Source: Bradyrhizobium algeriense (GTDB taxonomy: Bacteria > Pseudomonadota > Alphaproteobacteria > Rhizobiales > Xanthobacteraceae). Taken from it: 64,000 nucleotides of DNA. This document shows, one piece after another, positions 13,300 through 30,564 of the stretch (the stretch's first letter is position 1; each line of letters starts with the position of its first letter). Under the pieces are notes generated by a model. It searched no databases. It was not told the DNA's origin and saw only the letters and a list, made by a program, of their open reading frames with translations. A program made the translations under genes and the position numbers. Location of the stretch: contig NZ_JAZHRV010000001.1 in assembly GCF_036924595.1 (NCBI RefSeq), positions 4,154,001 to 4,218,000 of the forward strand, in the 5' to 3' direction.

Positions 13300-13451
13300 G
13301 ATTCCCCCCTGCATTTTCTTGCGACGGCGGATGCAACCGCGCCCGCTCATCCGTTGCAGGACAGTCTAGCGGATCGAGAGGCCCTGCCAACCCGCCACCA
13401 AAATTCGGTCATTCCCAAGAGGTGAGCTTCTGACCCAATTCGGACTTGGGT

Positions 13452-14742: not shown

Positions 14743-15516
14743 TTACTCACCTCCCGCAGGTTTTCGAGCGGTTTTCGTCTTCGGAAGTGATTCGGCGGTG
14801 GACTTGATCCGAATTCGCATCGATCCACCCTTGGGCTGATCGATCTCGAAAGAGTTTGTCTTTCGCACGAGGTCGCTCAGCTTGCGGGCGCCGAAGGTCC
14901 TCGAATCGAAATCGGGAGCCAGGTTGGTAATCCGTGTTCCGACTTCCCCAAGATCGACCCACCCGTCTTCGCTTTCCATCTGGGCGATCACCTTCTTGAT
15001 GATAGAGGTGGCTTCATCAGGGGATTGGAGCGGATTCGACTTCGAGGCGGCATCCTGGGTGTTCGCCGTGCCGCCAAGCAGGTTCTCGGTATAGAAGAAT
15101 CTTCGGCAGGCCTGCCTGAAGCTTTCCGGCGTCTTCTGCGCGCCGAACCCAAACACATCGACGCCGTGCTCCCGGATGCGGGCGGCAAGCCGCGTAAAAT
15201 CGCTGTCTGATGACACCAGGCAAAATCCGTCGAACCGGCCGCTGTGAAGCAGGTCCATTGCGTCAATGACCAGGGTTATGTCGGACGCATTCTTTCCAGT
15301 CGTATAGGCGAACTGCTGCTGGGGTATGATGGCATGCTTCGACAGAATGTCGGCCCAGCCCTTGGACCTTGCATTGGAGAAGTCGCCGTAGATGCGGCGG
15401 ACGCTGGCCTCGCCGATCTTGGCAATCTCCTCGAACAATCCGTCCGCGATCTTTGCGGACGCATTGTCAGCGTCGATCAGAACGGCGAGACGGGGCGAGC
15501 GGAGTTCGGAAGGCAT
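14743..15516 (-). CDS. NYN domain / OST-HTH (LOTUS) protein, putative RNase
   Basis: A 257-aa two-domain protein. Residues about 8-145 are a NYN (LabA/DUF88-type, PIN-like) nuclease domain with conserved acidic residues in LAVLIDADNAS, ASDITLVIDAMDLL and FCLVSSDSDFTRLA. Residues about 165-245 are an OST-HTH/LOTUS domain (TSIIKKVIAQMESEDGWVDLGEVG...LSDLVRKTNSFEI), thought to bind RNA. Such proteins are predicted to cleave or sequester RNA. ATG at 15516 has GGGGAAAG upstream; an in-frame TTG at 15528 is less likely. No partner gene is evident. Confidence 0.9.
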   Translation of the reverse strand: MPSELRSPRLAVLIDADNASAKIADGLFEEIAKIGEASVRRIYGDFSNARSKGWADILSKHAIIPQQQFAYTTGKNASDITLVIDAMDLLHSGRFDGFCLVSSDSDFTRLAARIREHGVDVFGFGAQKTPESFRQACRRFFYTENLLGGTANTQDAASKSNPLQSPDEATSIIKKVIAQMESEDGWVDLGEVGTRITNLAPDFDSRTFGARKLSDLVRKTNSFEIDQPKGGSMRIRIKSTAESLPKTKTARKPAGGE

Positions 15517-15702
15517 GACTTTCCCCAAAAAGGAAATGGAAACCTGGAAGACGGCGAGGCCGCCCGCAGGCCGTTGAGCCCGAGGACGTCGCCCCCTCGA
15601 AGCCGCTGCATGAACGAGCGATAGCTGGATAATACCGGTGCCCGGGCTCTCGCCACCAGACCTAAATTTCTCTCAGCGGGCACGAGTGGCCGCAAACGCG
15701 GC

Positions 15703-16563
15703 TCAGGCCGTTTTCGCCGCCGGCATCACGCCCCCAAGCGCAACCGTCAGCTCCGCCGCGACGTCGCGCACGATTTTTCCGAGTTCGGGCACACGCTCTT
15801 CGGTGACGCGGGAGGTCATGCCGGAGACGGAAATCGCCGCCAGCGGCTCGCTGCAGTCGCTGTAGACGACGGCGGCAACACAGCGCAGCCCCATGCGCGC
15901 CTCCTCATCGTCGACCGCATAGCCACGACGTCGGATCACCTCGAGCTCCCTGAACAGCTCGCCCGGCCGCACGATCGACTTCTCCGTCAGGCGCGGCATG
16001 CCCTGGCGGCAAATGATCGCGTTGACGTCAGCATCGGAATAGGTGGCGAGCACGGCCTTGCCGACGCCGGAGGCGACCATCGCGACGCGGCCGCCCACCT
16101 TGGTCAGCGAGCGCATGATCTCGCGGCTCTCCATGCGGGTCAGGACGATGATGGATTCGTCGTCGACTACGGCGAGATTGGCGGTTTCACGGGTCAGGTC
16201 GCGCAGTTTGCGCAAATAAGGCATCGCCTGCGCCGTGAAATTGCGGCGGCGGGTGAAGGTCGCGCCCACCGCAAAGCTCTGCGCGCCGACATGCCATTTC
16301 AATTCGGTGCGGTCGAACTGGACGAAGCGGCGCTTCTCCAGCGTCGCCAGCAGGCGGTGCACGGTCGAGGTCGACAACCCCGTGCGAACCGCGAGATCAG
16401 TCAGCCGATAGCCCTCGTCGTCTTCGGCCAGCACTTCGATGATGGAGAGCGCGCGGTCGACCGACTGGACGCCGCCATCCCGGGAATCGGCATCATTGTC
16501 GGCGCCGGATTTCGGCTCGACCGGTTTGCGCCGGATCACGTTTCGCTTCATCGCGACCTGCAT
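15703..16563 (-). CDS. IclR-family transcriptional regulator
   Basis: A 286-aa regulator. The N-terminal winged helix-turn-helix spans about residues 28-95 (VDRALSIIEVLAEDDEGYRLTDLAVRTGLSTSTVHRLLATLEKRRFVQ). The C-terminal IclR effector domain spans about 105-275 (AQAMPYLRKLRDLTRETANLAVVDDESIIVLTRMES...GVGKAVLATYSD). IclR proteins often control aromatic or small-acid catabolism and respond to a metabolite. Its target is not evident: it lies convergently beyond a repeat hairpin from the acyl-CoA synthetase on the same strand, 142 nt downstream of that gene, and might be its co-transcribed regulator. Confidence 0.9.
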   Translation of the reverse strand: MQVAMKRNVIRRKPVEPKSGADNDADSRDGGVQSVDRALSIIEVLAEDDEGYRLTDLAVRTGLSTSTVHRLLATLEKRRFVQFDRTELKWHVGAQSFAVGATFTRRRNFTAQAMPYLRKLRDLTRETANLAVVDDESIIVLTRMESREIMRSLTKVGGRVAMVASGVGKAVLATYSDADVNAIICRQGMPRLTEKSIVRPGELFRELEVIRRRGYAVDDEEARMGLRCVAAVVYSDCSEPLAAISVSGMTSRVTEERVPELGKIVRDVAAELTVALGGVMPAAKTA

Positions 16564-18896: not shown

Positions 18897-18913
18897 TGGC
18901 ATTTGGTATGCCA
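18897..18913. promoter_or_regulatory. predicted GntR operator, site 1
   Basis: TGGCATTTGGTATGCCA: full match to TGGYAT-N5-ATRCCA and containing the compact TGGTATRCCA core. It lies 26-42 nt upstream of the acyl-CoA synthetase ATG, just downstream of a leftward TTGACA (complement of 18921-18926), so binding there would block that promoter. Confidence 0.75.
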
Positions 18914-18968
18914 GAGATCCGATTGTCAAGACAAACTATCGCGCAGAAACAGCGAAAACACGGGCATC

Positions 18969-18994
18969 TTGACATACTGGTATTTGGTATGCCA
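18969..18994 (+). promoter_or_regulatory. TTGACA promoter element with predicted GntR operator, site 2
   Basis: TTGACA at 18969-18974 is followed directly by operator copy TGGTATTTGGTATGCCA (18978-18994), which occupies the spacer and -10 area 61-77 nt upstream of the gntR GTG. The -10 hexamer is not clear. The arrangement suggests autorepression of gntR-oxc-frc. Confidence 0.7.
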
Positions 18995-19054
18995 AAAATA
19001 TTCGAGTGTTTCTTCTGCTAAGAAGACGTCTCCAACACAGGGAGGAGACGAGTC

Positions 19055-19786
19055 GTGCCCGCACCAAAACAAACCAAGGCGCCGCCTGTCATGGCTGAGG
19101 CAGATATTGCAATCGTCCGGATTGCTCCCGAGACGAGCTTCAAGAACAAGGCCTACGAGGCCTTGAAGGAAGCTATTCTCAAGATGGACATCTACGCGAC
19201 GCCCGAGCAGGTGATGCTCGACGAGCGCGCGCTGTCCGAACGCCTCGGCGTCAGCCGCACCCCTATTCGCGAAGCCATCGCGATGCTTGAACAAGATGGC
19301 TTCGTCAAAACCGTTCCGCGCCGCGGCATCGTCGTGGTTCGCCGCACCAAGACCGAGATCGTCGACATGATCCGCGCTTGGGCTGCGCTCGAAAGCATGG
19401 CCGCGCGCCTGATCACGACCACCGCGCGCAAGAAGGACATCACGGCGCTGCGCGATTTCTTCAAGGATTTTGGCAAAGATCGCCTGCCGCAGGATCATGT
19501 CGAGGAATACTCCAAAGCCAACATCGCGTTCCATCAGGCGCTAATCTCGCTTTCGGAATCGCCGGTGCTGGTCGATTTGACCAACGACCTCCTGCTGCAT
19601 GTGCGCGGCTACCGGCAATTGACCATCGGGCGGAAGGATCGCACCGCGACCTCCCTGCCCGAGCATCTCGGCATCATCGAAGCGCTGGAAGCACGCGACA
19701 CCGAACTCGCCGAGAAACGCGCACGCGACCACACGCTGGGCCTTGCCGCCTACGTCGAGGCGCACGGCCAGGAACTATTTACCTAG
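19055..19786 (+). CDS. GntR-family (FCD/FadR-type) transcriptional regulator of the oxalate locus
   Basis: A 243-aa regulator. Residues about 30-95 form the GntR winged helix (YEALKEAILKMDIYATPEQVMLDERALSERLGVSRTPIREAIAMLEQDGFVKTVPRRGIVV); residues about 100-235 form the all-helical FCD ligand domain. The GTG at 19055 has GGGAGGAG at ideal distance; an internal ATG at 19091 would remove disordered residues only. It heads an operon with oxc and frc and diverges from the acyl-CoA synthetase. FadR-type regulators bind TGGTATACCA-like palindromes, exactly what recurs seven times in this locus. A likely ligand is oxalate, oxalyl-CoA or formyl-CoA. Confidence 0.92.
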   Translation: MPAPKQTKAPPVMAEADIAIVRIAPETSFKNKAYEALKEAILKMDIYATPEQVMLDERALSERLGVSRTPIREAIAMLEQDGFVKTVPRRGIVVVRRTKTEIVDMIRAWAALESMAARLITTTARKKDITALRDFFKDFGKDRLPQDHVEEYSKANIAFHQALISLSESPVLVDLTNDLLLHVRGYRQLTIGRKDRTATSLPEHLGIIEALEARDTELAEKRARDHTLGLAAYVEAHGQELFT

Positions 19787-19852
19787 ACGCAACTTCGCAC
19801 CAGAAGACGACGAAAAATCGTCCGAACCAAAACGATCAGGGAGATGAAGCCC

Positions 19853-21583
19853 ATGCTGAATACCGCGACCAAGTCCGAAGCACCGGGCACCGAGCAAGAG
19901 CTGACGGATGGCTTTCATCTCGTCATCGACGCGCTCAAGCTCAACGGCATCAACACCATCTATGGTGTGCCGGGCATCCCGATCACGGACCTCGGCCGCA
20001 TGATGCAGGCCGAGGGTATTCGCGTGCTGTCGTTCCGCCACGAGCAGAACGCCGGCTACGCCGCCTCGATCGCCGGCTACCTGACCAAGAAACCGGGCGT
20101 CTGCCTCACCGTCTCGGCGCCCGGCTTCCTCAACGGCCTCACCGCGCTCGCCCACGCCACCACCAACTGCTTCCCGATGATCCTGATCTCGGGCTCCTCC
20201 GAGCGCGAGATCGTCGACCTGCAGCAGGGCGACTATGAAGAGATGGACCAGCTTGCGGTCGCCAAGCCGCTCTGCAAGGCCGCCTTCCGCGTCCTGCATG
20301 CGGCCGACATCGGCATCGGCCTGGCGCGCGCGATCCGTGCCGCCGTCTCGGGTCGCCCGGGCGGCGTTTATCTCGACCTGCCCGCAAAACTTTTCGGTCA
20401 GGTGATGGACGCGGCTGCCGGCGCGAAGTCGCTGGTGAAGGTGATCGACGCTGCGCCGGCCCAGATCCCTGCCCCATCCGCCGTCAAGCGCGCGCTCGAC
20501 GTGCTCAAGGGGGCGAAACGCCCCCTCATCATTCTCGGCAAGGGCGCGGCCTATGCGCAGGCCGACGACGAGATCCGCGCCTTCGTCGAAAAGACCGGCG
20601 CGCCGTTCCTGCAGATGAGCATGGCCAAGGGCTTGCTGCCCGACACGCATGCGCAGTCGGCCGGTGCGGCACGCTCGACCGTGCTGAAGGACGCCGATGT
20701 CGTCATGCTGATCGGCGCCCGCCTCAACTGGCTGCTGTCGCACGGCAAGGGCAAGACCTGGGGCGACGCGCCTAAGAAATTCATCCAGATCGACATCGAG
20801 CCGAAGGAAATGGATTCCAACGTCGAGATCGTGGCCCCCGTGGTCGGCGATATCGGCTCCTGCGTGTCCGCGCTGCTCGAGGGCATGGGCGGCAGCTGGT
20901 CCGCTGCGCCGGCCGACTGGGTCTCGACCGTCAACAAGAAGCGTGACGACAACGTTGCCAAGATGGCGCCGAAGCTGATGAGCAACGCCTCGCCGATGGA
21001 TTATCACGGCGCACTCGGCGCACTGCGCACCATCATCAAGGAGCGGCCCGACGCCATCCTGGTCAACGAAGGTGCCAATACGCTCGACCTCGCCCGCGGC
21101 GTCATTGACATGTACAAGCCGCGCAAGCGGCTCGACGTCGGCACCTGGGGCGTCATGGGCATCGGCATGGGCTATTCGATCGCGGCCGCCGTCGAGACCG
21201 GCAAGCCGGTGCTCGCGATCGAGGGCGACTCGGCCTTCGGTTTCTCCGGCATGGAGATCGAGACCATCTGCCGCTACCAGCTTCCGGTCTGCATCGTCAT
21301 CTTCAACAATGACGGCATCTATCGCGGCACCGACGTCAATGCGAGCGGCTCCGATCCGGCGACGACGGTGTTCGTCAAGGGCTCACGCTACGACAAGATG
21401 ATGGAAGCGTTCGGCGGCGTCGGCATCAATGCCACCTCGCCCGACGAGCTGAAGCGCGCTGTCAACGCAGCGATGGATTCCGGCAAGCCGACGCTCATCA
21501 ACGCGGTGATCGATCCGGCGGCCGGTTCCGAGAGCGGCCGCATCGGCAACCTCAATCCGCAAAGCGTTCTGAAAAAGAAATAA
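19853..21583 (+). CDS. oxc: oxalyl-CoA decarboxylase
   Basis: A 576-aa TPP enzyme converting oxalyl-CoA to formyl-CoA plus CO2. The TPP-activating Glu64 is in [13 protein letters not shown], in contrast with Val51 of Gcl in the same window. The PP motif [34 protein letters not shown] is intact, and the C-terminus is Lys-rich as in known oxalyl-CoA decarboxylases. I chose the ATG at 19853 because AGGGAG lies 9 nt upstream; an ATG at 19844 overlaps the ribosome-binding site. It is 66 nt after gntR and 65 nt before frc, so one transcript is likely. Confidence 0.96.
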
Positions 21584-21648
21584 CCGACTTCAACCCATTT
21601 CATCCTGCACGCGCAAGGCGCAGACAGACACAGTACGGAGCAAAGACG

Positions 21649-22926
21649 ATGACAAAGGCGCTCAAGGGCGTTCGTATTCTTGATTTCACCCACGTTCAGT
21701 CGGGTCCGACCTGCACGCAATTGCTGGCCTGGTTCGGCGCCGACGTGATCAAGGTCGAACGCCCCGGCGTCGGCGACATCACGCGTGGCCAGTTGCAGGA
21801 CATTCCCAATGTGGACAGCCTGTATTTCACCATGCTCAACCACAACAAGCGCTCGATCACGCTCGACACCAAGAACCCGAAGGGCAAGGAAGTCCTCACC
21901 GCCCTGATCAAGAGCTGCGACGTGCTGGTGGAAAATTTCGGCCCCGGCGTGCTCGATCGCATGGGCTTCCCCTGGGAGAAGATCCACGCCATCAACCCGA
22001 AGATGATCGTGGCCTCGATCAAGGGCTTTGGTCCCGGGCCTTACGAAGACTGCAAGGTGTATGAGAACGTCGCCCAGTGCACCGGCGGCGCCGCTTCGAC
22101 CACTGGCTTCCGCGACGGGCTGCCGCTCGTCACCGGCGCGCAGATCGGCGACAGCGGCACCGGGTTGCATCTCGCGCTCGGCATCGTCACCGCGCTCTAC
22201 CAGCGCACCATGACCGGCCAGGGCCAGAAGGTTACGGCTGCGATGCAGGACGGCGTGCTCAACCTCGCGCGCGTCAAACTGCGCGACCAGCAGCGCCTCG
22301 CCCATGGTCCGCTGAAGGAATACAGCCAGTTCGGCGAAGGCATTCCGTTCGGCGACGCGGTGCCGCGCGCCGGCAACGATTCCGGTGGCGGCCAGCCCGG
22401 CCGCATCCTGAAGTGCAAGGGCTGGGAGACCGATCCCAACGCCTACATCTATTTCATCACCCAGGCGCCGGTGTGGGAGAAGATCTGTGACGTGATCGGT
22501 GAGCCTACCTGGAAGACCGATGCGAACTACGCCAAGCCGCCTGCCCGCCTGTCGCGGCTGAACGAGATCTTCGCTCGCATCGAACAGTGGACGATGACCA
22601 AGACCAAGTTCGAGGCGATGGAAATCCTCAACAGGGACGACATCCCCTGCGGCCCGATCCTGTCGATGAAGGAGATCGCCGAAGACCAGTCGCTGCGCGC
22701 GACCGGCACCGTGGTCGAGGTCGATCATCCGACCCGCGGCAAGTACATCTCCGTCGGCAATCCGATCAAGCTGTCGGACTCACCGAGCGAGGTGACGCGT
22801 TCGCCGCTGCTCGGCGAGCACACCGACGAGATCCTGCGCCAGGTTCTCGGCTTCTCCGATCACCAGGTCGCCGAGATCCACGACTCCGGCGCGCTCGATC
22901 CGCCGCGGAAGCAGGCGGCCGAATAA
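21649..22926 (+). CDS. frc: formyl-CoA:oxalate CoA-transferase
   Basis: A 425-aa class III CoA-transferase that swaps CoA between formyl-CoA and oxalate, feeding Oxc. The catalytic Asp is Asp168 in AQIGDSGTG, equivalent to Asp169 of the O. formigenes enzyme. The N-terminus [36 protein letters not shown] is highly characteristic, as is the Gln at position 17 of HVQSGP that distinguishes formyl-CoA transferases from other family members. Followed by a strong terminator, so the operon gntR-oxc-frc ends here. Confidence 0.96.
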
Positions 22927-22954
22927 GCCAACTCTTAAGAGAACACAAAATGCC

Positions 22955-22982
22955 AAGGCCGCCGGTTTCCGGCGGCCTTTTT
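22955..22982 (+). terminator. intrinsic terminator after frc
   Basis: An 11-bp GC-rich stem (AAGGCCGCCGG / CCGGCGGCCTT), 3-nt loop TTT, then T-rich tail. It sits 28 nt after the frc stop and closes the gntR-oxc-frc transcript. Confidence 0.9.
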
Positions 22983-23075
22983 CTGTCTGGGATGTTCCGT
23001 CTGGAATGCCACTTTCTTTAGTTTTGCTGCAATGCAAACAGCCAATTGCTGCTATGCAAACAAGCCCGTTGTAGC

Positions 23076-23092
23076 TGGCATCTGGTATACAT
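23076..23092. promoter_or_regulatory. predicted GntR operator, site 3
   Basis: TGGCATCTGGTATACAT: left half perfect, right half two mismatches to TGGYAT-N5-ATRCCA. It lies 57-73 nt upstream of the 45-codon gene, inside the independent unit bounded by two terminators. Confidence 0.65.
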
Positions 23093-23148
23093 AAATTGTC
23101 CCGAGATTACCAAGCGGAATGGTTCCGCTCCAAGAAAAGGGGACAAAC

Positions 23149-23286
23149 ATGTCCAAGACTGCATCCATGGGCCTCCTGCCCTCCAGCACCCTGTTCAGCC
23201 GTCTGATGGCTTCCATCGACCGCCTGCTGACCGCGAGCAGCCGTATCGCCATCCGCAACGGCGACCTCCCCCGTTTCGGTCTCTGA
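23149..23286 (+). CDS. small protein of the oxalate locus (45 aa), unknown function
   Basis: Too short for standard gene calling. An ATG at 23149 is preceded by AAAAGGGGA at 6 nt and opens 45 codons to TGA at 23284. The product begins MSKTASMGLLPSSTLFSRLM, is basic and amphipathic in the middle (RLMASIDRLLTASSRIAIR) and ends RNGDLPRFGL. It has no Cys and no clear membrane segment. It has its own operator-like site upstream and its own terminator downstream (23360), so it is a separate transcription unit between the frc terminator and the transporter genes. It could be a stress or transport-associated peptide; I do not recognise a family. Confidence 0.75.
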   Translation: MSKTASMGLLPSSTLFSRLMASIDRLLTASSRIAIRNGDLPRFGL

Positions 23287-23359
23287 GCCTATAAAATAAG
23301 CGATTTGCGATCGAAGGTCTTCTTCAGGCGAACGGTCCTCCGCATGATCTCTCTGTACC

Positions 23360-23387
23360 AATGGCCCCGGCTTCCGGGGCCATTTTT
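23360..23387 (+). terminator. intrinsic terminator after the 45-aa gene
   Basis: An 11-bp stem (AATGGCCCCGG / CCGGGGCCATT), 3-nt loop CTT, followed by TTT. It lies about 75 nt after the small gene's stop. Confidence 0.9.
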
Positions 23388-23471
23388 CGTTTGCAGCGGG
23401 CCGCCGACTTTTACCAACATCTGCGACAAATCAGCCCGAATGCCAATTCGCCGCAATAACCGTTTGCGTCC

Positions 23472-23488
23472 TGGCATATCGCATACAA
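23472..23488. promoter_or_regulatory. predicted GntR operator, site 7
   Basis: TGGCATATCGCATACAA: left half perfect, right half one mismatch to TGGYAT-N5-ATRCCA, but the compact TGGTATACCA core is degraded. It is 333-349 nt upstream of the tctC-like ATG, so regulation of the transporter from here requires a long leader. Confidence 0.45.
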
Positions 23489-23820
23489 AGATACATCAAG
23501 GGCGCCCGCACCGAAAAGAAGGGCGCATTTTGGGGGGATAAGGTCGTGCGGTCCACGAGGACAGCCAAGGCGATCTGGCGCGAAGCCGGCGGTGCATCTC
23601 ACCTGCCCTCTTCGGCGTTATGCAAATACACAATTGGCCGAAAGGAGCGGATGCCGCACCGAAAGGTCCCTCTTACAATTCGAGCCTGCAATCATCGCAC
23701 GGGGACAACCGTTGCGGTGTAACAGTCATGAGTGCGAGAACAACCCGATCGAATGGTCGGGACAGAACTAGAAAGCCGGCAAAGACCGACGTAACCACAG
23801 TTCGACGGGAGAGAAACAAA

Positions 23821-24834
23821 ATGAAGCACACTGCACAAACGGCGTTGGGCGCAATCGCCGCCTTATGCGCGATCGGGATTTCTGTTCCTGCGATCGCCGC
23901 ATGGGAACCGGTACGGCCAGTCGAGTTCATCGTTCCTGCCGGCACCGGCGGCGGCGCCGATCAGATGGCGCGGACGATCCAGGGCATCGTCACCAAGCAC
24001 AATCTGATGAAGCAGCCGATGGTCGTCATCAACAAGGCGGGCGGCGCCGGCGGCGAAGGCTTCCTCGACCTCAAGACATCGGGCGGCAATCCGCACAAGA
24101 TCATCATCACGCTCTCCAACCTCTTCACCACCCCTCTTGCCACCGGCATCCCGTTCAACTGGAAGGATCTCACGCCGGTAACGATGCTGGCGCTCGATGA
24201 GTTCGTGCTGTGGGTGAACGCCGAAAAACCGTACAAGACGACGAAAGAATATATTGATGCCGTGAAGGCCGCTCCTGCCGGTACCATGAAGATGGGCGGC
24301 ACCGGCTCGAAGCAGGAAGACCAGATCATTACGGTCGCGGTCGAGAAAGCCACCGGCAGCAAGTTCACCTACATTCCCTACAAGGGCGGCGGCGAAGTCG
24401 CGGTTCAGCTCGTCGGCAACCATGTCGACTCCACTGTCAACAATCCGATTGAGGCCGTCGCGCAATGGCGTGGTGGCAAGCTGCGTCCGCTTTGCGTGTT
24501 CGACGCGCAGCCGATGGGCTATGACGAACAGGTCGCGGACGGCAAGAGCTGGAAGGATATTCCGACCTGCAAGTCGCAGGGTCTCGATATGGAATATCTG
24601 ATGCTGCGCGGCATCTTCATGTCGCCACGGGCCACCAAGGATCAGATCGAATATTACGTCGAGCTGTTCAAGAAGGTTCGCGCCACGCCCGAGTGGCAGG
24701 ACTTCATGAAGAGCGGCGCGTTCAACACGACCTCCCTGACCGGGGCAGAATATGCCAAATGGGTCGAGGTCGAGGAAAAGCGCCACGAGGTCCTGATGAA
24801 GGATGCCGGTTTCCTTGCCGCACCTGGCAACTGA
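23821..24834 (+). CDS. tripartite tricarboxylate transporter substrate-binding protein (TctC/Bug family)
   Basis: A 337-aa periplasmic binding protein. A signal peptide covers residues 1-27 (ending AIAAW). The Bug-fold hallmarks are present: RPVEFIVPAGTGGGADQMAR, MVVINKAGGAGGEG, GTGSKQEDQI and FTYIPYKGGGEVAVQLVGNHVDSTVNNP. Bug proteins bind carboxylates. GGGAGAG precedes the ATG. It is followed by tctB- and tctA-like genes, so this is a full TTT importer. Its location between frc and the OxlT-like carrier suggests oxalate or a related dicarboxylate as the solute. Confidence 0.92.
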   Translation: MKHTAQTALGAIAALCAIGISVPAIAAWEPVRPVEFIVPAGTGGGADQMARTIQGIVTKHNLMKQPMVVINKAGGAGGEGFLDLKTSGGNPHKIIITLSNLFTTPLATGIPFNWKDLTPVTMLALDEFVLWVNAEKPYKTTKEYIDAVKAAPAGTMKMGGTGSKQEDQIITVAVEKATGSKFTYIPYKGGGEVAVQLVGNHVDSTVNNPIEAVAQWRGGKLRPLCVFDAQPMGYDEQVADGKSWKDIPTCKSQGLDMEYLMLRGIFMSPRATKDQIEYYVELFKKVRATPEWQDFMKSGAFNTTSLTGAEYAKWVEVEEKRHEVLMKDAGFLAAPGN

Positions 24835-24906
24835 TCGACGCATCGCCCGCAACCGGGATCATAACGCAGGCGCCGGGCCTCGGGCCCGGCCGCGCATGGA
24901 GTTTTG

Positions 24907-25404
24907 ATGACAACAGGCAGCTCGAGCAAGACAGGCCCCACCCACAAGCTGGTGGAGGCTGGGATCACGTTGCTGATCGCCCTCTTCGGCGTCATCGTTA
25001 TCGTCGGCAGCCTGAAGGCCGGCATTAACTGGGGCGCGGAGGGTCCGCGCGCCGGCTTCTTTCCATTCTACATCGGAATCTTCATCGTCGCATCCAGCGG
25101 GATAAACCTGTGGAACGGACTGCGCGACGACAATGACGAGCTGTTCGCGGAATGGGGACAGCTTCGCCAGGTTATGAGCGTCGTCATTCCAACCGCGATC
25201 TATGTCGGCGCCATGCCGTTCACCGGGCTGTATCTCGCCTCGATCGTCTTCATCGCATGGTTCATGCGATGGCTGGGCAAGTACCCTTGGATTACCGTGC
25301 TGGCCGTCGCGCTCGGCATGCCCATTGTCACCTATTTCATTTTCGAGCGCTACTTTCTGGTCCCGCTTCCCAAGGGGCCGATCGAAGAGTGGCTCGGTCT
25401 GTAA
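24907..25404 (+). CDS. tripartite tricarboxylate transporter small membrane subunit (TctB family)
   Basis: A 165-aa protein with four predicted membrane helices (about residues 14-34, 48-64, 86-104 and 119-143). WGAEGPRAGFFPFYIGIFIV is the typical TctB motif, and the TAIYVGAMPFTGLYLASIVFIAWFMRWLG segment fits helices 3-4. It forms the inner-membrane complex with TctA. The ATG at 24907 is 72 nt after the binding-protein stop. Confidence 0.9.
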   Translation: MTTGSSSKTGPTHKLVEAGITLLIALFGVIVIVGSLKAGINWGAEGPRAGFFPFYIGIFIVASSGINLWNGLRDDNDELFAEWGQLRQVMSVVIPTAIYVGAMPFTGLYLASIVFIAWFMRWLGKYPWITVLAVALGMPIVTYFIFERYFLVPLPKGPIEEWLGL

Positions 25405-25431
25405 CATCGGCGCACAGTCAGGATTATCGGG

Positions 25432-26931
25432 ATGGAAGAACTCGTCAATCTGTTTCATGGCTTTGCGGTCGCGCTGCAGCCTTTCAACATCATGGTGATG
25501 GTCCTCGGCATCGTGCTCGGCGTCATCATCGGCGTGCTTCCGGGATTGGGCGGCGCCAATGGCGTTGCGATCCTGTTGCCGCTGACATTCTCGATGCCGC
25601 CGACGTCGGCCATCATCATGCTGTCCTGTATTTATTGGGGCGCATTGTTCGGCGGAGCGATCACCTCGATTCTCTTCAACATACCCGGCGAACCATGGTC
25701 GGTCGCGACGACATTCGACGGCTACCCGATGGCGCAGAAGGGCAAGGCCGGCGAAGCTTTGACGGCGGCCTTCACCTCGTCGTTCGTGGGCGCCCTGTTC
25801 GCCGTGATCATGATCACGCTAGTCGCGCCGCTGGTCGCAAGCTTCGCGTTGCAATTCGGACCAGCCGAGAAATTCGCGGTTTATTTTCTGGCGTTCTGCA
25901 GTTTCGTCGGCTTGAGCAAGGAACCACCCTTCAAAACCATTGCGGCGATGATGATTGGATTTGCGCTCGCCGCCGTCGGCCTCGACTCCATCACCGGACA
26001 GCTACGGCTGACATTCGGCGTTACCCATCTGCTCAACGGGTTCGACTTCCTGATCGCCGTCATCGGGCTGTTCGGCATCGGCGAGATCCTGCTGACGATG
26101 GAGGAAGGGCTCGCCTTCCGCGGCGGCAGCGCCAAGATCAATTTGCGGGTGGTGCTGCAGACCTGGAAGGAGTTGCCGGCCTACTGGGTGACGTCGCTGC
26201 GCTCCTGCGTGATCGGCTGCTGGATGGGCATCACGCCGGCCGGCGCAACGCCGGCATCCTTCATGAGCTACGGCATCGCCAAGCGGGTGTCGAAGAAAGG
26301 CGCCAATTTCGGCAAGGGAGAAATCGAAGGCGTGGTCGCACCGGAGACCGCGGCGCACGCCGCCGGCACCGCGGCGTTGCTGCCGATGCTTTCGCTTGGC
26401 GTTCCGGGTTCGCCGACAGCCGCCGTGTTGCTCGGCGGCCTCCTGATCTGGGGCCTGCAGCCCGGGCCGATGCTGTTTGTCGAACAGAAGGAATTCGTCT
26501 GGGGCCTGATCGCCTCGATGTATCTCGGCAATCTCGTCGGCCTGATCGTTGTGTTGACCTGCGTGCCTGTCTTCGCGGCCATCCTGCGCGTCCCCTTCAG
26601 CATCATCGCGCCACTCATCCTGGTGCTGTGCGCGATCGGCGCCTACTCGGTTCACAGCAGCACGTTCGACGTGGTGTTGATGCTGGTGTTCGGCGTGATC
26701 GGCTACCTGCTCAAGAAGTGCAACTATCCCCTCGCCCCGCTGGTGCTGGCCATCGTGCTCGGCGACAAGGCGGAAGAGGCATTCCGGCAATCGTTGCTGG
26801 GATCCCAGGGCTCGCTCGGCATATTCTTTTCCAACACGCTGGTCAGCACGATCATGATCCTGGGATTGGTTGCACTGTTCTGGTCGGTGATCCAGCAAGG
26901 CTATACCCGCTTGCGCGGCGCCGTTGCCTGA
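25432..26931 (+). CDS. tripartite tricarboxylate transporter large permease (TctA family)
   Basis: A 499-aa protein with about 11-12 membrane helices. The family's conserved segments are all visible: GVIIGVLPGLGGANGVAILLPLTF near the N-terminus, IYWGALFGGAITSILFNIPGEPWSVATTFDGYPMAQKGKAGEAL, and the second Gly-rich repeat EGVVAPETAAHAAGTAALLPMLSLGVPGSPTAAVLLGGL. It catalyses ion-coupled uptake of the solute delivered by the TctC-like protein. Last gene of the operon, followed by tandem hairpins. Confidence 0.94.
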   Translation: MEELVNLFHGFAVALQPFNIMVMVLGIVLGVIIGVLPGLGGANGVAILLPLTFSMPPTSAIIMLSCIYWGALFGGAITSILFNIPGEPWSVATTFDGYPMAQKGKAGEALTAAFTSSFVGALFAVIMITLVAPLVASFALQFGPAEKFAVYFLAFCSFVGLSKEPPFKTIAAMMIGFALAAVGLDSITGQLRLTFGVTHLLNGFDFLIAVIGLFGIGEILLTMEEGLAFRGGSAKINLRVVLQTWKELPAYWVTSLRSCVIGCWMGITPAGATPASFMSYGIAKRVSKKGANFGKGEIEGVVAPETAAHAAGTAALLPMLSLGVPGSPTAAVLLGGLLIWGLQPGPMLFVEQKEFVWGLIASMYLGNLVGLIVVLTCVPVFAAILRVPFSIIAPLILVLCAIGAYSVHSSTFDVVLMLVFGVIGYLLKKCNYPLAPLVLAIVLGDKAEEAFRQSLLGSQGSLGIFFSNTLVSTIMILGLVALFWSVIQQGYTRLRGAVA

Positions 26932-26973
26932 AGTGAGCAAGGCGCCATCGCCAGAGCGAACAAAATCCTTCCC

Positions 26974-27012
26974 TGAAGCCTGACTACGAGGAGCATAGTC
27001 AGGCTTCATTTA
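26974..27012 (+). terminator. intrinsic terminator after tctA-like gene
   Basis: A perfect 13-bp stem (TGAAGCCTGACTA / TAGTCAGGCTTCA), 9-nt loop, then TTTAA, starting 43 nt after the stop codon. Confidence 0.85.
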
Positions 27013-27030
27013 ACCACCTGAAACGGGTCA

Positions 27031-27067
27031 TGATGGCCGGGCACTGTCCCGGCCATCATCGTTTTTG
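27031..27067 (+). terminator. second hairpin terminator after tctA-like gene
   Basis: An 11-bp stem (TGATGGCCGGG / CCCGGCCATCA), 6-nt loop, followed by TCGTTTTT. Together with the hairpin at 26974 it forms a tandem terminator insulating the MFS gene. Confidence 0.8.
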
Positions 27068-27250
27068 GGCGCTGGGATATCAGGCGCGAGAAAGTGCAAG
27101 CTCTCATAACGAATGCAGCCAGCAGCGCTCGTCTACTAATTTCTTTTTTGTTTCAGTATTTTAACGTGTGGCCTGATCACCGCAGTTCTAATGACGCGTG
27201 TTCAGTAGCAACAGGAAATGCGACAAACTGGCAAGATTTCTCTTGTCTAC

Positions 27251-27267
27251 TGGCATAACATATACCA
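27251..27267. promoter_or_regulatory. predicted GntR operator, site 4
   Basis: TGGCATAACATATACCA: full match to TGGYAT-N5-ATRCCA. It lies 52-68 nt upstream of the ATG of the OxlT-like carrier, where a promoter is expected. Confidence 0.7.
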
Positions 27268-27318
27268 AACTCTTCCCTTGAGCTGTCGGGTATCGATAGA
27301 ACAGCCTATGGAGGGAAG

Positions 27319-28614
27319 ATGACGGACACAGTGCACGGAGCGGCCCCCGTCGCGGCGGCCCGAGTCAGCGATGCTTATCGCTGGACCCAGTTAGCCATCG
27401 GCGTCGCCGCAATGGTCATGATCGCCAATTATCAATATGGTTGGACTTTCTTCGTCCCCGACATCCAGAAGAAATTCGGATGGGATCGCGCTTCGATCCA
27501 GTGGGCATTTACGCTGTTCGTGCTGTTCGAGACCTGGCTGGTCCCGGTCGAAGGATGGTTCGTCGATAAATACGGCCCGCGCCTCGTCGTCCTGGTCGGC
27601 GGCATCCTCTGCGCCATCGGATGGGCGATCAACGCCCAGGCGACCACCCTCAACGGCTTCTATCTCGGCATGATCATCGCAGGCATCGGCGCCGGCGGCG
27701 TGTACGGCACCTGCGTCGGCAACGCGCTGAAATGGTTTCCGGACAAGCGCGGCCTTGCTGCCGGTATCACCGCCGCCGGATTCGGCGCGGGCTCGGCGCT
27801 GACGGTCGCGCCGATCCAGGCGATGATCAAGGACTCCGGCTTCCAGACCACCTTCCTCTATTTCGGTCTCGGACAAGGCATCATCATCGTGATCCTCGCC
27901 TTCTTGATGTTCGCGCCCAAAGTGGGACAGGTGCCTGCGGTGACGCAGAATGCCAACATCATCCAGACCCGGCGCAATTATCAGCCGACCGAGGTGATCC
28001 GTCAGCCGATCTTCTGGCTGATGTATTTCATGTTCGTGATCGTCGGCGCCGGCGGATTGATGGTCACCGCCAACCTCAAGCCGATCGCCGTCGACTGGAA
28101 GGTCGACAGCGTACCCGTCACACTGATGGCGGTGACGATGACGGCAGTGACGTTCGCGGCCACCATCGATCGCGTCCTCAACGGCCTCACCCGTCCCTTC
28201 TTCGGCTGGATCTCGGACATGATCGGGCGCGAGAACACCATGTTCATCGCGTTCGGCATGGAAGGCATCGGCATCTGGGGCCTGTACATGCTGGGCCACG
28301 ATCCGGTGTGGTTCGTGCTGCTGTCGGGCTTCGTGTTCTTTGCCTGGGGCGAGATCTATTCCCTCTTCCCGTCGACCTGCACCGACACCTTCGGCGCGAA
28401 GTTCGCGACCACCAATGCCGGCCTGCTCTACACGGCGAAGGGCACCGCGGCGCTGCTGGTGCCTGTCGCGAACTACATGCAGCAGTCTTCAGGCACCTGG
28501 GACACCGTGTTCATCGTCGCGGCCGGTGCGAACATCCTGGCCTCGGTGCTGGCGATCGCCTTGCTCAAGCCCTGGCGCAAGTCGGTGGTCGCCAAATCGC
28601 AGCTCGCGGCCTGA
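27319..28614 (+). CDS. MFS transporter, oxalate/formate antiporter (OxlT-like) family
   Basis: A 431-aa 12-helix major facilitator. The N-terminal YRWTQLAIGVAAMVMIANYQYGWTFFVPDIQKKFGW and GGVYGTCVGNALKWFPDKRGLAAGITAAGFGAGSALTVAPIQ segments are characteristic of the oxalate:formate antiporter family; so is FFGWISDMIGRENTMFIAFGMEGIGIWGLYMLG. OxlT exchanges oxalate for formate across the inner membrane. A GGAGGGAAG site precedes the ATG. It has its own operator (site 4) and terminator (28641), and its position beside frc/oxc strongly supports the substrate. Confidence 0.9.
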   Translation: MTDTVHGAAPVAAARVSDAYRWTQLAIGVAAMVMIANYQYGWTFFVPDIQKKFGWDRASIQWAFTLFVLFETWLVPVEGWFVDKYGPRLVVLVGGILCAIGWAINAQATTLNGFYLGMIIAGIGAGGVYGTCVGNALKWFPDKRGLAAGITAAGFGAGSALTVAPIQAMIKDSGFQTTFLYFGLGQGIIIVILAFLMFAPKVGQVPAVTQNANIIQTRRNYQPTEVIRQPIFWLMYFMFVIVGAGGLMVTANLKPIAVDWKVDSVPVTLMAVTMTAVTFAATIDRVLNGLTRPFFGWISDMIGRENTMFIAFGMEGIGIWGLYMLGHDPVWFVLLSGFVFFAWGEIYSLFPSTCTDTFGAKFATTNAGLLYTAKGTAALLVPVANYMQQSSGTWDTVFIVAAGANILASVLAIALLKPWRKSVVAKSQLAA

Positions 28615-28640
28615 TCCAAACCGGATCGGCTATTCGAAAC

Positions 28641-28675
28641 AAGCGCGCTCATCCTCCGGGATGGGCGCGTTTTTC
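28641..28675 (+). terminator. intrinsic terminator after the OxlT-like gene
   Basis: An 11-bp stem with one G-T pair (CGCGCTCATCC / GGATGGGCGCG), short loop, then TTTTTCTTTT. Confidence 0.85.
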
Positions 28676-28686
28676 TTTTGCCTGGG

Positions 28687-28706
28687 CGTCATCTGGTATA
28701 CCAGAT
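28687..28706. promoter_or_regulatory. predicted GntR operator, site 5 (perfect compact palindrome)
   Basis: Contains ATCTGGTATACCAGAT (28691-28706), a perfect 16-bp palindrome and the best compact core in the locus. It lies just after the MFS terminator and about 190 nt upstream of the CBS-protein ATG. Confidence 0.72.
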
Positions 28707-28828
28707 CGCTTTTCGGCCCGCCCCAGGGACGTTCCTCTATCCTCGGGTCGGAATGGAGCGCTTCAATAACGTCAGTAATACTGCCTATTTATCTTCATCC
28801 CGGCGAAAGATTTCCAAGGCCAAACGTG

Positions 28829-28853
28829 TTGACAATTGGCATTATGTATACCA
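28829..28853 (+). promoter_or_regulatory. TTGACA element with predicted GntR operator, site 6
   Basis: TTGACA at 28829-28834 followed by TGGCATTATGTATACCA (28837-28853), a full match to TGGYAT-N5-ATRCCA, 36-52 nt upstream of the CBS-protein ATG. Same layout as at the gntR promoter. Confidence 0.7.
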
Positions 28854-28888
28854 GAGTTAGATCAATGTTTCACCCCAAGGAGGTTGCC

Positions 28889-29320
28889 ATGCAAGTCGGA
28901 GATATCCTGCGCAACAAAGCCGCCCGTGTCGCAACGGTCCGCATGAACGAGACCGTCGCCGTCGCAGCCCAACTGATGCGCTCCAGCAATATCAGCGCGC
29001 TGGTCGTCAAGGATGTCGTCCGCACCGAAGGCAACACGGCGGTCGGCATGTTCACCGAGCGCGACGTCGTTCGCGCGATTGCCGCACACGGCGCAGCCGG
29101 CGTGAACATGCGCGTTTCGCAATTCATTTCGGTGCAACAGCTCGTTTCCTGCACGTCGACGGATACGCTCGAGCATGTCCGCCACCTCATGAGCAAGCAT
29201 CACATCCGCCACGTGCCGGTGATCGACAATTACAGCCTGATCGGCGTCATCAGCATTCGCGATATCTTCAACGCGTTCGACGACGAAGCAACGCCCTTTA
29301 AGCTCGCCGCATCGGCCTGA
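28889..29320 (+). CDS. CBS-domain pair protein
   Basis: A 143-aa protein made of two CBS motifs: residues about 1-62 (MQVGDILRNKAARVATVRMNETVAVAAQLMRSSNISALVV...GMFTERDVVRAI) and about 76-132 (VSQFISVQQLVSCTSTDTLEHVRHLMSKHHIRHVPVIDNYSLIGVISIRDIF). Such stand-alone pairs bind adenosine nucleotides and regulate other proteins. AAGGAGG precedes the ATG at 28889. Two operator-like sites (5 and 6) precede it, linking it to the oxalate regulon; it might sense energy or CoA-nucleotide status there. Partner unknown. Confidence 0.9.
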   Translation: MQVGDILRNKAARVATVRMNETVAVAAQLMRSSNISALVVKDVVRTEGNTAVGMFTERDVVRAIAAHGAAGVNMRVSQFISVQQLVSCTSTDTLEHVRHLMSKHHIRHVPVIDNYSLIGVISIRDIFNAFDDEATPFKLAASA

Positions 29321-29475
29321 CCGTCGCTTCGAACTGCGCCGGCATTTTTTGGGCTGCACTCCCAGGGAAGACGGTATCGCACCGCAATAGTCGGCTTAAC
29401 TCCTGTCGCAAAGCAGGCGCTCGCAAATCTGCGCCGGAGTAGTGGTGCCGGAAAACATCATCTGTGGGAGGGCGC

Positions 29476-30564
29476 ATGGCGCGTAACATTCTGATCCTCG
29501 GGGCCTCGTATGGCTCGTTGCTGGCGACAAAGCTTTTGATGGCGGGTCACAACGTGACCCTGGTTTGCCGGAAGCAGACGGCAGAACTCATCAATCGCGA
29601 CGGCACCGAAGTTCGCATCAAGCTGCGCGACGAGGCGGCCCACCGGCCGATCTTCTCGCGCGACCTGCCTGGCATCTTGGACGCAGTCGAGCCCGCCGAC
29701 GTCGATCCTTCCCGTTATGATCTGGTTGGTCTTGCGATGCAGGAGCCGCAATACGCTGCTCCCGCGATGCGGCTTCTGATGATCAAAATCGCCGAAGCGA
29801 AGCTGCCTTGCCTTTCGATCATGAACATGCCCCCTCTGCCCTATCTCAAGCGCATCCCGGCCCTTGCGGAAATGGAGTTGGAGAAGGCCTATACCAACGC
29901 TGCGGTATGGGATCGGTTTGAGCCAGGCCTGGTGTCGCTCTGCTCTCCGGATCCGCAGGCCTTCCGTCCCCCAGAGGAAGCGGCGAATGTTCTTCACGTC
30001 GGCTTGCCGACAAACTTCAAGGCCGCGTCATTTGCGGACGAGAAGCACAATCTGCTGCTTCGAGAGCTGGAAGCCGACATCGATGGGGTGAAGCTGGATG
30101 GCCAGGACGTTCCGGTGAAGCTCAAAGTGTTCGATTCGATGTTCGTCCCTCTGGCCAAATGGTCGATGCTGTTGACCGGGAATTACCGCTGCATCACGCC
30201 GCAAGAGCCGCAATCGATCCGCGACGCGGTGCACGGCGATATCAACCTCTCGCAATCGATTTATGACCACGTCGATGCCATCGCCCAGCGTTTGGGCGCC
30301 GATCCCACGGATCAGGTACCTTTCGAGAAATATGCCAAAGCGGCGGAAAGCCTTCTCAGGCCCTCGTCAGCAGCCCGGGCGGTCGCTGGTGGCGCGCCTT
30401 CCATCGAACGCGTCGACCTGCTGGTGAAGCTGATTTCGCATCAGCTTGGCGCACCCAATGCCGAAATCGACCGTACGGTCCAGATCGTCAATCAGAAACT
30501 GAATGAGAGCATCACGGCGAACGCGTCCGGCGCACCGCGAGGTGCTCCAGTCGCTGTGACGTAG
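29476..30564 (+). CDS. ketopantoate-reductase-like NAD(P)-binding protein
   Basis: A 362-aa protein whose N-terminus is a Rossmann fold of the ApbA/PanE type: NILILGASYGSLLATKLLMAGHNVTLVCRKQTAELINRDG. The glycine pattern is GASYGS, not GxGxxG, so cofactor binding may be altered. The C-terminal half (VFDSMFVPLAKWSMLLTGNYRCITPQEPQSIRDAVH) corresponds to the helical ApbA domain but is divergent. GGGAGG precedes the ATG at 29476. Substrate unknown. It begins 155 nt after the CBS gene with no recognised operator of its own. Confidence 0.72.
   Translation: MARNILILGASYGSLLATKLLMAGHNVTLVCRKQTAELINRDGTEVRIKLRDEAAHRPIFSRDLPGILDAVEPADVDPSRYDLVGLAMQEPQYAAPAMRLLMIKIAEAKLPCLSIMNMPPLPYLKRIPALAEMELEKAYTNAAVWDRFEPGLVSLCSPDPQAFRPPEEAANVLHVGLPTNFKAASFADEKHNLLLRELEADIDGVKLDGQDVPVKLKVFDSMFVPLAKWSMLLTGNYRCITPQEPQSIRDAVHGDINLSQSIYDHVDAIAQRLGADPTDQVPFEKYAKAAESLLRPSSAARAVAGGAPSIERVDLLVKLISHQLGAPNAEIDRTVQIVNQKLNESITANASGAPRGAPVAVT

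Follow-up and report, generated by a model that had tools for sequence, protein, structure and literature searches.

A 17-bp inverted repeat, TGGYAT-N5-ATRCCA, recurs upstream of the genes for CoA-dependent oxalate breakdown. Judged from its positions, its targets are the acyl-CoA synthetase gene, gntR-oxc-frc, tctCBA, oxlT, the CBS-domain gene and, weakly, the gene for a 45-aa protein; its distal targets are fdsGB-fdsA and sucCD-sucAB. The element probably serves the adjacent GntR/FCD protein as its operator, and this protein would be an autoregulated repressor of a regulon that takes oxalate to CO2. Oxalate is a major carbon compound of plants and soil. An operator with few false positives provides a candidate regulator, a target list and a ready reporter. 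The regulon would tie formate dehydrogenase and succinyl-CoA synthetase to the breakdown of oxalate, a link with a possible bearing on CoA priming of the pathway.

Sites at the oxalate locus

The window (the whole 64,000-nt stretch of DNA analysed) carries a CoA-dependent oxalate catabolic locus, with oxc, frc and oxlT equivalogs all scoring above cut-off (Table 1). The acyl-CoA synthetase scores below the cut-off of every NCBIfam model that it matched. A motif scan of the window placed exact copies of the element at 18897, 18978, 27251 and 28837, a copy with one mismatch at 23472 and copies with two mismatches at 23076 and 28687. These seven positions and their mismatch counts had been given in an earlier note on this DNA and were reproduced in full, as was their placement between genes. 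Of the seven, the copy at 28687 is weak and that at 23076 is degenerate. The site before the 45-aa gene occurs in its one-mismatch form in 5 of 18 relatives and is exact in none of the 18. The copy at 28687 has a TTG nine bases upstream but lies some 185 bp from the next start, and its counterpart has an altered right half in both relatives compared (L098 and L099). This copy is probably not a working promoter operator.

Table 1. Genes, operator copies and predicted promoter elements of the oxalate locus
Feature	Position	Strand	Remarks
IclR protein gene	15703-16563		beyond synthetase
ADP-forming acyl-CoA synthetase, 721 aa	16706..18871	-	ATP-grasp and CoA-ligase domains
Putative operator, acyl-CoA synthetase promoter	18897..18913	-	exact; three half-sites; ~26 bp before ATG
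Predicted -35 TTGACA, acyl-CoA synthetase promoter	18924..18929	-	inferred from consensus and conservation
Predicted -35 TTGACA, gntR-oxc-frc	18969..18974	+
Putative operator, gntR-oxc-frc	18978..18994	+	exact; three half-sites; ~60 bp before gntR GTG
gntR, FadR-subfamily (GntR + FCD) regulator, 243 aa (P0001)	19055..19786	+
oxc, oxalyl-CoA decarboxylase	19844..21583	+	TIGR03254 above cut-off
frc, formyl-CoA transferase	21649..22926	+	TIGR03253 above cut-off
Degenerate operator copy before 45-aa gene	23076..23092	+	two mismatches
45-aa small protein gene	23149..23286	+	present in 18/20 sampled genus/family loci
Putative operator before tctC	23472..23488	+	one mismatch
tctC-like substrate-binding protein	23620..24834	+	start codon uncertain
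tctB-like	24907..25404	+
tctA-like	25432..26931	+
Predicted -35 TTGTCT, oxlT	27243..27248	+	-10 CAAACT 27266-27271; spacer 17 bp
Putative operator, oxlT	27251..27267	+	exact; two half-sites; 51 bp before ATG
oxlT, oxalate/formate antiporter	27319..28614	+	TIGR04259 above cut-off
Weak copy	28687..28703	+	compact core TGGTATACCA, left half lost
Predicted -35 TTGACA, CBS-domain gene	28829..28834	+	-10 CAGAGT 28852-28857; spacer 17 bp
Putative operator, CBS-domain gene	28837..28853	+	exact; 35 bp before ATG
CBS-domain protein	28889..29320	+

The sites at the locus are not a product of chance, an origin rejected by two shuffle tests. The window holds 16 matches with up to two mismatches; the shuffle mean is 4.42, and none of 100 shuffles reaches 16. 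The nine matches beyond the set of seven, of which tctB and tctA hold two, lie outside the intergenic stretches of the locus. In those stretches, five in number and 1399 bases in total, there are 4, 5 and 7 copies at up to 0, 1 and 2 mismatches, respectively, against maxima of 0, 1 and 2 in 2000 dinucleotide shuffles of the same DNA.

Across sampled relative loci the same genes are preceded by sites at similar distances. The gap between gntR and the synthetase gene holds two exact copies in all 20 sampled genus and family loci, and this pairing is an autoregulatory position. The spacing is specific: in 40 relative loci (585 kb), all selected around gntR homologues, 97 inverted pairs are spaced at N5, and any other spacing from 0 to 40 occurs at most twice. 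The earlier note had also drawn attention to a compact core, TGGTATRCCA. Its three copies are present as claimed (18904, 18985 and 28694), but the constant element in relatives is the spaced 17-bp form.

Genomic distribution and the GntR protein

There are seven exact copies in the 8.1-Mb genome. Four are at the oxalate locus, one precedes fdsGB-fdsA, one precedes sucC, and one, at C1:7637078, falls within a coding frame and was put down to chance. All six intergenic copies are thus upstream of oxalate, formate or suc genes. Allowing one mismatch gives 41 places, 32 in coding frames and 9 intergenic, a split made by a simple ORF caller in which a few of the coding assignments are short, weakly scored frames. 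Eight of the nine intergenic places, including two overlapping ones at sucC, stand before oxalate, formate or suc genes. The one stray, at 3411588, is 107 bp before a gene matching the hexapeptide and UDP-GlcNAc O-acyltransferase families. An occurrence at background frequency, which the earlier note had named beforehand as speaking against its proposal, is not what the genome-wide scan found.

The distal targets on the chromosome are the formate dehydrogenase genes fdsGB-fdsA and sucCD-sucAB, in which sucC and sucD encode succinyl-CoA synthetase. A protein search with FdsGB returned names including formate dehydrogenase beta subunit and NADH:ubiquinone oxidoreductase subunit F/E, none with a locus tag. 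For each of the two distal types we placed 29 copies from the genus, 58 in all: 25 precede sucC, 26 fdsGB, 4 gntR and 1 oxlT, so that 56 precede genes of the regulon set, and the other two precede an iclR/CBS pair. Of 265 genus genomes, 239 contain the sucC-type sequence and 147 the fds-type; both counts are upper bounds, because a few copies precede other genes and only the 29 + 29 copies were placed. The iclR/CBS pair is preceded by the element in two species, and in one case adjoins a gene scoring above the glyoxylate carboligase cut-off. In two genomes of another family (L119 and L120), sucCD, the synthetase gene, fds, frc, oxc, gntR and oxlT share one operator-bearing cluster, and in L124 gntR, oxc, frc and fdsGB are co-directional behind a single exact operator. 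These clusters argue that the distal fds and suc genes belong to the regulon. The distribution of sites in the genome and in relatives therefore favours the earlier proposal that the adjacent GntR controls the whole set; the candidate set itself is larger than proposed, with fds, suc and the iclR/CBS pair added.

The abundance of the motif tracks GntR across families. Among genomes of the order outside the genus, at least four exact copies are carried by 20 of 20 whose GntR hit is close (E from 1e-80 to 1e-140) and by 20 of 218 without a GntR hit. The 20 genomes with a close GntR are not independent, since they represent six families and ten are from one genus. In a named collection of 59 loci with GntR proteins 40-97% identical, 21 loci, some of them short, lack any site with one mismatch or fewer in the 300 bp before a regulon gene. 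They include both Cupriavidus loci, three of four Paraburkholderia loci and the one Burkholderia locus. Either the specificity has changed there or the link between GntR and the element is not universal. A scan with one FadR-type core pattern gave no match in the regions before gntR homologues in betaproteobacterial loci, 11 in all and one of them in a MAG labelled Pandoraea.

The gntR product has an N-terminal GntR winged helix (PF00392, 49.9 bits, cut-off 27) and a C-terminal FCD domain (PF07729, 78.6 bits, cut-off 24.3); the C-terminus is predicted to be all-helical in the structural model. The NCBIfam NanR model gives 66.4 bits, far below its cut-off of 260. Residues H160, H204 and H226 are invariant across 22 GntR homologues (alignment A1), at least 90% conserved in the wider alignment A2, and align with histidines of TM0439 (PDB 3FMS). 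These three conserved residues of the FCD pocket probably hold a metal ion.

Promoters and alternative readings

At the oxlT and CBS-gene promoters, the element occupies the predicted -35/-10 spacer and overlaps the -10. A TTG is at the fixed place in 26 of 28 oxlT sites and 18 of 18 CBS sites in relative loci, and the T four bases past the site (the last T of the -10) is kept in all 46 (28/28 and 18/18). This arrangement is as expected for a blocking repressor. A GntR dimer would sit on the 17-bp operator and, at these two promoters, shut RNA polymerase out of the -35/-10 region. Oxalate, oxalyl-CoA or formyl-CoA would enter the FCD pocket and cause release from DNA. Uptake, activation, decarboxylation and formate oxidation would then rise together, and succinyl-CoA synthetase capacity would be added.

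It is highly improbable that GntR is instead an activator or dual regulator whose operator would boost transcription in the oxalate-bound state. An FCD activator is known in CitO, which requires citrate and a metal (PMC4746285), and neither the 9 sucC sites nor the 4 fdsGB sites show the fixed -35/-10 frame. The position between -35 and -10 at oxlT and the CBS gene suits steric block, however, and not activation, although some promoters may be activated. Nor do we give much credence to another regulator, such as the IclR protein or a second FCD protein, binding the element with GntR as a bystander. The IclR gene lies close by, and an IclR relative has the element upstream in two species. Against this, motif abundance tracks GntR, the sites precede gntR itself, and a search of the genome, in which 9 of 43 first-look candidates were scored, gave a single GntR match with an E value of 1e-40 or better. 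The IclR gene was not found in 11 of 20 fetched genus and family loci, all of which retain sites; these stretches end soon after the synthetase gene and IclR may lie elsewhere in the genome, so its absence removes it only as a fixed neighbour. IclR is thought unlikely to bind the element.

Which part of the element is read is a separate matter. In FadR-subfamily sites a TKGT box and an ACMA box stand so close that 2-3 nt separate GT from AC (PMC4494728), and the inner core of the gntR, synthetase, sucC and fds sites of the genus has such boxes. Of 40 unique genus sites, 25 have an intact inner half, as do 37 of 64 unique sites from elsewhere, compared with about 6% by chance. The compact TGGTATRCCA could then be the real operator and the 17-bp palindrome a by-product of half-site reuse. 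We consider this unlikely: the inner half is absent from all 8 unique oxlT-type sites outside the genus and from 8 of the 12 within it, whereas the outer halves are retained. The canonical GT-N2/3-AC core is missing from most oxlT sites and from the two fdsGB sites outside the genus. A genome-wide search for the compact core alone finds 10 places, three at the locus and one within the sucC site. As a defining motif it was rejected, being less specific genome-wide and broken at most oxlT sites.

A more elaborate, tentative possibility, doubtful in our view, is a three-part operator that one FCD repressor reads in two registers, the 17-bp pair everywhere and the overlapping 10-bp FadR-type palindrome, with the third half-site setting the order of release and oxalate wired into sucCD-sucAB. 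In the genus, gntR, the synthetase gene, sucC and fdsGB have the 10-bp palindrome in full; at oxlT and the CBS gene it is mostly broken. The transporter and CBS genes would thus be released before the enzymes and the TCA-cycle branch. If true, this would couple oxalate supply directly to sucCD-sucAB transcription across most of the genus. Outside the genus, however, the third half-site is kept at 0 of 2 fdsGB and 1 of 4 sucC sites.

Comparison with known systems

CoA-dependent oxalate degradation in Bradyrhizobium (PMC5996035) uses the same enzymes (Oxc, Frc and OxlT). In B. diazoefficiens, Frc and Oxc increase on arabinose; blr2316, whose only given name is NADH-ubiquinone oxidoreductase chain F, was detected on arabinose only. 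The main text of that paper does not contain the word GntR. In E. coli, EvgA controls the yfdXWUVE operon, which includes homologues of Frc and Oxc (PMC3720670). EvgA is an acid-response activator, unlike the repressor proposed here, and the passages on yfdXWUVE name no GntR protein. In the same source, YfdE and UctC yielded no product with succinyl-CoA as CoA donor to oxalate, and that route was rejected on the record of these two enzymes. No transcriptional regulator of bacterial CoA-dependent oxalate degradation other than EvgA was among the matches listed in open-licence PubMed Central.

The protein resembles FadR-subfamily regulators in its GntR and FCD domains and its TGGT/ACCA-type half-sites (PMC4494728); the distance between GT and AC is usually 2-3 nt in that subfamily, whereas here the constant outer pair has them 9 nt apart. 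E. coli NanR (PMC8012715) is a GntR-type repressor, with a zinc site, three half-sites per operator and a half-site, GGTATA, that resembles TGGYAT. NanR uses direct repeats of GGTATA and a 32-residue N-terminal extension for cooperativity. Such tandem repeats are not the operator here, where the constant element is an inverted N5 pair, in many sites with a third half-site at a distance of one base. GlcR of Paracoccus denitrificans (PMC11323563) is a GntR repressor of the FadR subfamily that adjoins its target operon and whose DNA binding in EMSA is weakened by glycolate. It controls a single cluster, glcDEF, and has another ligand. The likeness, drawn by description and not by sequence, is that of an alphaproteobacterial FadR-subfamily GntR protein beside its target genes, in the pathway of a two-carbon acid.

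Copies of the putative operator in the locus and in the genome

A pattern scan of the window placed seven copies of the putative 17-bp operator TGGYAT-N5-ATRCCA where the earlier note had put them, with the mismatch numbers it claimed. The seven-copy finding is real. In the five intergenic stretches from the synthetase to the CBS gene, 4, 5 and 7 copies are present at up to 0, 1 and 2 mismatches; the maxima in 2000 dinucleotide shuffles of these stretches are 0, 1 and 2. The whole genome is a single contig of 8.1 Mb, in which the window is G000:C1:4154001-4218000. The genome contains seven exact copies, four of them in the oxalate locus, and no exact match to a reversed-pattern control. At up to one mismatch the genome has 41 places. 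A simple ORF caller, whose crudeness shows in a false frame called across the CBS gene, assigns 32 of these to coding and 9 to intergenic DNA. With seven exact copies in 8.1 Mb, and genes of the set downstream of eight of the nine intergenic places, the element is not at genomic background frequency.

Positions in the window and, where marked C1, in the whole genome
Feature	Position	Detail
Operator copies	18897, 18978, 23076, 23472, 27251, 28687, 28837	28687: weak core in gap 3' of oxlT
gntR	19055-19786	FadR-subfamily regulator
45-aa gene	23149-23286	purine-rich stretch upstream of ATG
PanE/ApbA-type domain genes	12238-13350, 29464-30564	on both sides of the oxalate locus
NYN + OST-HTH/LOTUS domain protein gene	14743-15528	adjoins an IclR gene; no evident oxalate tie
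Stretch with plasmid matches	18800-29500	parts matched by 35 plasmid or secondary-replicon records
Exact copy	C1:5580998	46 bp upstream of gene for 572-aa product with NuoE- and NuoF-type domains
Exact copy	C1:7419536	about 43 bp upstream of sucC; gene order mdh, sucC, DUF1579 gene, sucD, sucA, sucB
Exact copy	C1:7637078	inside a coding frame

The regulator and its relatives

The earlier note assigned control of the whole set to the adjacent GntR, and comparative sequence evidence supports this interpretation well. Seven named records carry a GntR 92-97% identical; as five of them are called Bradyrhizobium, this is taken to be the genus. Of its 265 genomes, 261 match GntR (E 1e-60 or better), and the other four are 67-81% complete. 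We fetched 20 loci (19 from the genus, one from the same family). All 20 have two exact copies in the gntR/synthetase gap, and sites with at most one mismatch lie upstream of oxlT (15/15), the CBS gene (15/15) and tctC (8/9). Upstream of the 45-aa gene such a site is present in only 5 of 18 relatives. Across 40 loci, 97 facing TGGYAT/ATRCCA pairs have the N5 spacing; no other spacing from 0 to 40 has more than two.

Among 297 genomes of the order Rhizobiales, all 30 with GntR at E 1e-80 or better have at least four exact copies. With the genus and one close relative excluded, this number of copies is found in 20/20 such genomes, which are not independent because they span six families and ten belong to one genus, in 12/49 with a weaker match and in 20/218 with no GntR match. 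A named collection gave 59 loci whose GntR is 40-97% identical; in 38 of them a site lies close to a regulon gene. Such a site is absent in 21, including 2/2 Cupriavidus, 3/4 Paraburkholderia, 1/2 Caballeronia and the sole Burkholderia. More distant GntRs have a site in 1 of 21 loci.

Both the GntR and FCD domains score above cut-off, and the scores for all 21 matching NCBIfam models stay below theirs. Residues H160, H204 and H226 are invariant across 22 homologues and align with histidines of TM0439, for which metal binding by three histidines is described (PMC4746285). The AlphaFold model has a mean pLDDT of 84, with residues 1-25 below 50. The targets and the metal-and-carboxylate pattern of FCD proteins suggest that the ligand would be oxalate itself.

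The 45-aa protein keeps its C-terminus RNGDLPRFGL in most of 18 relatives, and substitutions in its gene are most frequent at the third codon position (283/586). The longer 55-aa frame has no Pfam match. The small 45-aa protein is perhaps under oxalate control. As for the two PanE/ApbA-type genes on either side of the locus, a PanE homologue is involved in growth of Methylobacterium on oxalate. A second oxlT-like gene, 54-56% identical and with its own one-mismatch site, adjoins oxlT in 8 of 20 relatives (loci L100, L102, L104, L106, L107, L112, L114 and L117). The window has one oxlT only, and the weak core behind it may be a relic. Many of the plasmid and secondary-replicon records (Azospirillum 14, Sinorhizobium 7, Skermanella 4, others) match across oxc and frc; the oxalate enzymes are thus also carried on large replicons.

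Predicted distal operators at fds and suc genes

The reported oxalate set stands, but as the extent of the regulon it was too small: distal operators would add formate dehydrogenase and the suc operon. The gene after the NuoE/NuoF-type one has a product that scores above the cut-off of TIGR01591 (formate dehydrogenase alpha subunit). Within the genus, sucC-type sequences occur in 239 and fds-type sequences in 147 of 265 genomes. We placed 58 loci with sucC- or fds-type copies, the first new ones among the matches listed and not a random sample; sucC lies 37-47 bp downstream at 25 and fdsGB 38-51 bp downstream at 26. The others have gntR (4) or oxlT (1) downstream or lie in the iclR/CBS gap (2). 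In another family (L119, L120), two gntR genes, sucCD, the synthetase, fdsGB-fdsA, frc, oxc and oxlT are clustered with operators in between. In a third (L124), one exact operator precedes co-directional gntR, oxc, frc and fdsGB.

In B. diazoefficiens on arabinose, Frc and Oxc are reported as more abundant in the cytoplasmic fraction (PMC5996035), and the chain F protein blr2316 as seen on arabinose only (PMC5996035). Should blr2316 be fdsGB, the latter would agree with the fds prediction. The species also has genes under the names fdhF and nuoF (bll3136, bll3137; PMC4070659).

The copies in the iclR/CBS-gene gap come from two species (L150, L152; also L254, L258). The next gene in L150 scores above the glyoxylate carboligase cut-off, which would tie the regulon to glyoxylate use. 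In another family's oxalate clusters (L118, L126-L129), gntR is adjoined by a diverged sucCD-like pair, 37-54% identical, with a close upstream site in three of five loci (L118, L126, L128). This pair may encode a CoA ligase acting on a different acid.

Half-sites, promoters and known operators

A third half-site lies one base after the first and creates an overlapping TNGYATRCCA-type palindrome. At unique genus sites it is present at gntR (6/6), synthetase (1/1), sucC (3/3) and fdsGB (2/2), and intact at tctC (5/6), oxlT (4/12) and CBS (1/6). Overall, this inner half is intact at 25/40 unique sites in the genus and 37/64 in the rest, where chance would give about 6%. Among sites from outside the genus, those at gntR (27/38) and synthetase (6/6) retain it, but few or none do at oxlT (0/8), sucC (1/4) and fdsGB (0/2).

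Promoters were aligned on the operator; the rows are related sequences picked for having the site. The oxlT-type promoters (n=28) carry TTG at a constant distance upstream (T 28, T 26, G 26), where all 18 CBS-type promoters have TTGAC. A T stands four positions 3' of the site in 28/28 and 18/18. From sequence, we infer a predicted -35 separated by a 17-bp spacer from a -10 CANNNT, the first two bases of which are the operator's last two. TTGACA lies three bases upstream at most gntR sites and about ten at synthetase sites. No comparable fixed TTG was seen at sucC (9 sites) or fdsGB (4 sites).

The GT-AC distance in FadR-subfamily operators is described as usually 2-3 nt, and the NanR operator as direct TGGTATAW repeats (PMC4494728), bound by three NanR dimers (PMC8012715). 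Here, in contrast, the outer pair is spaced and constant, and is thus unusual for the subfamily. We regard this as a new regulon of a known kind of repressor, with an operator that is unusual; the system itself is not of a new kind.
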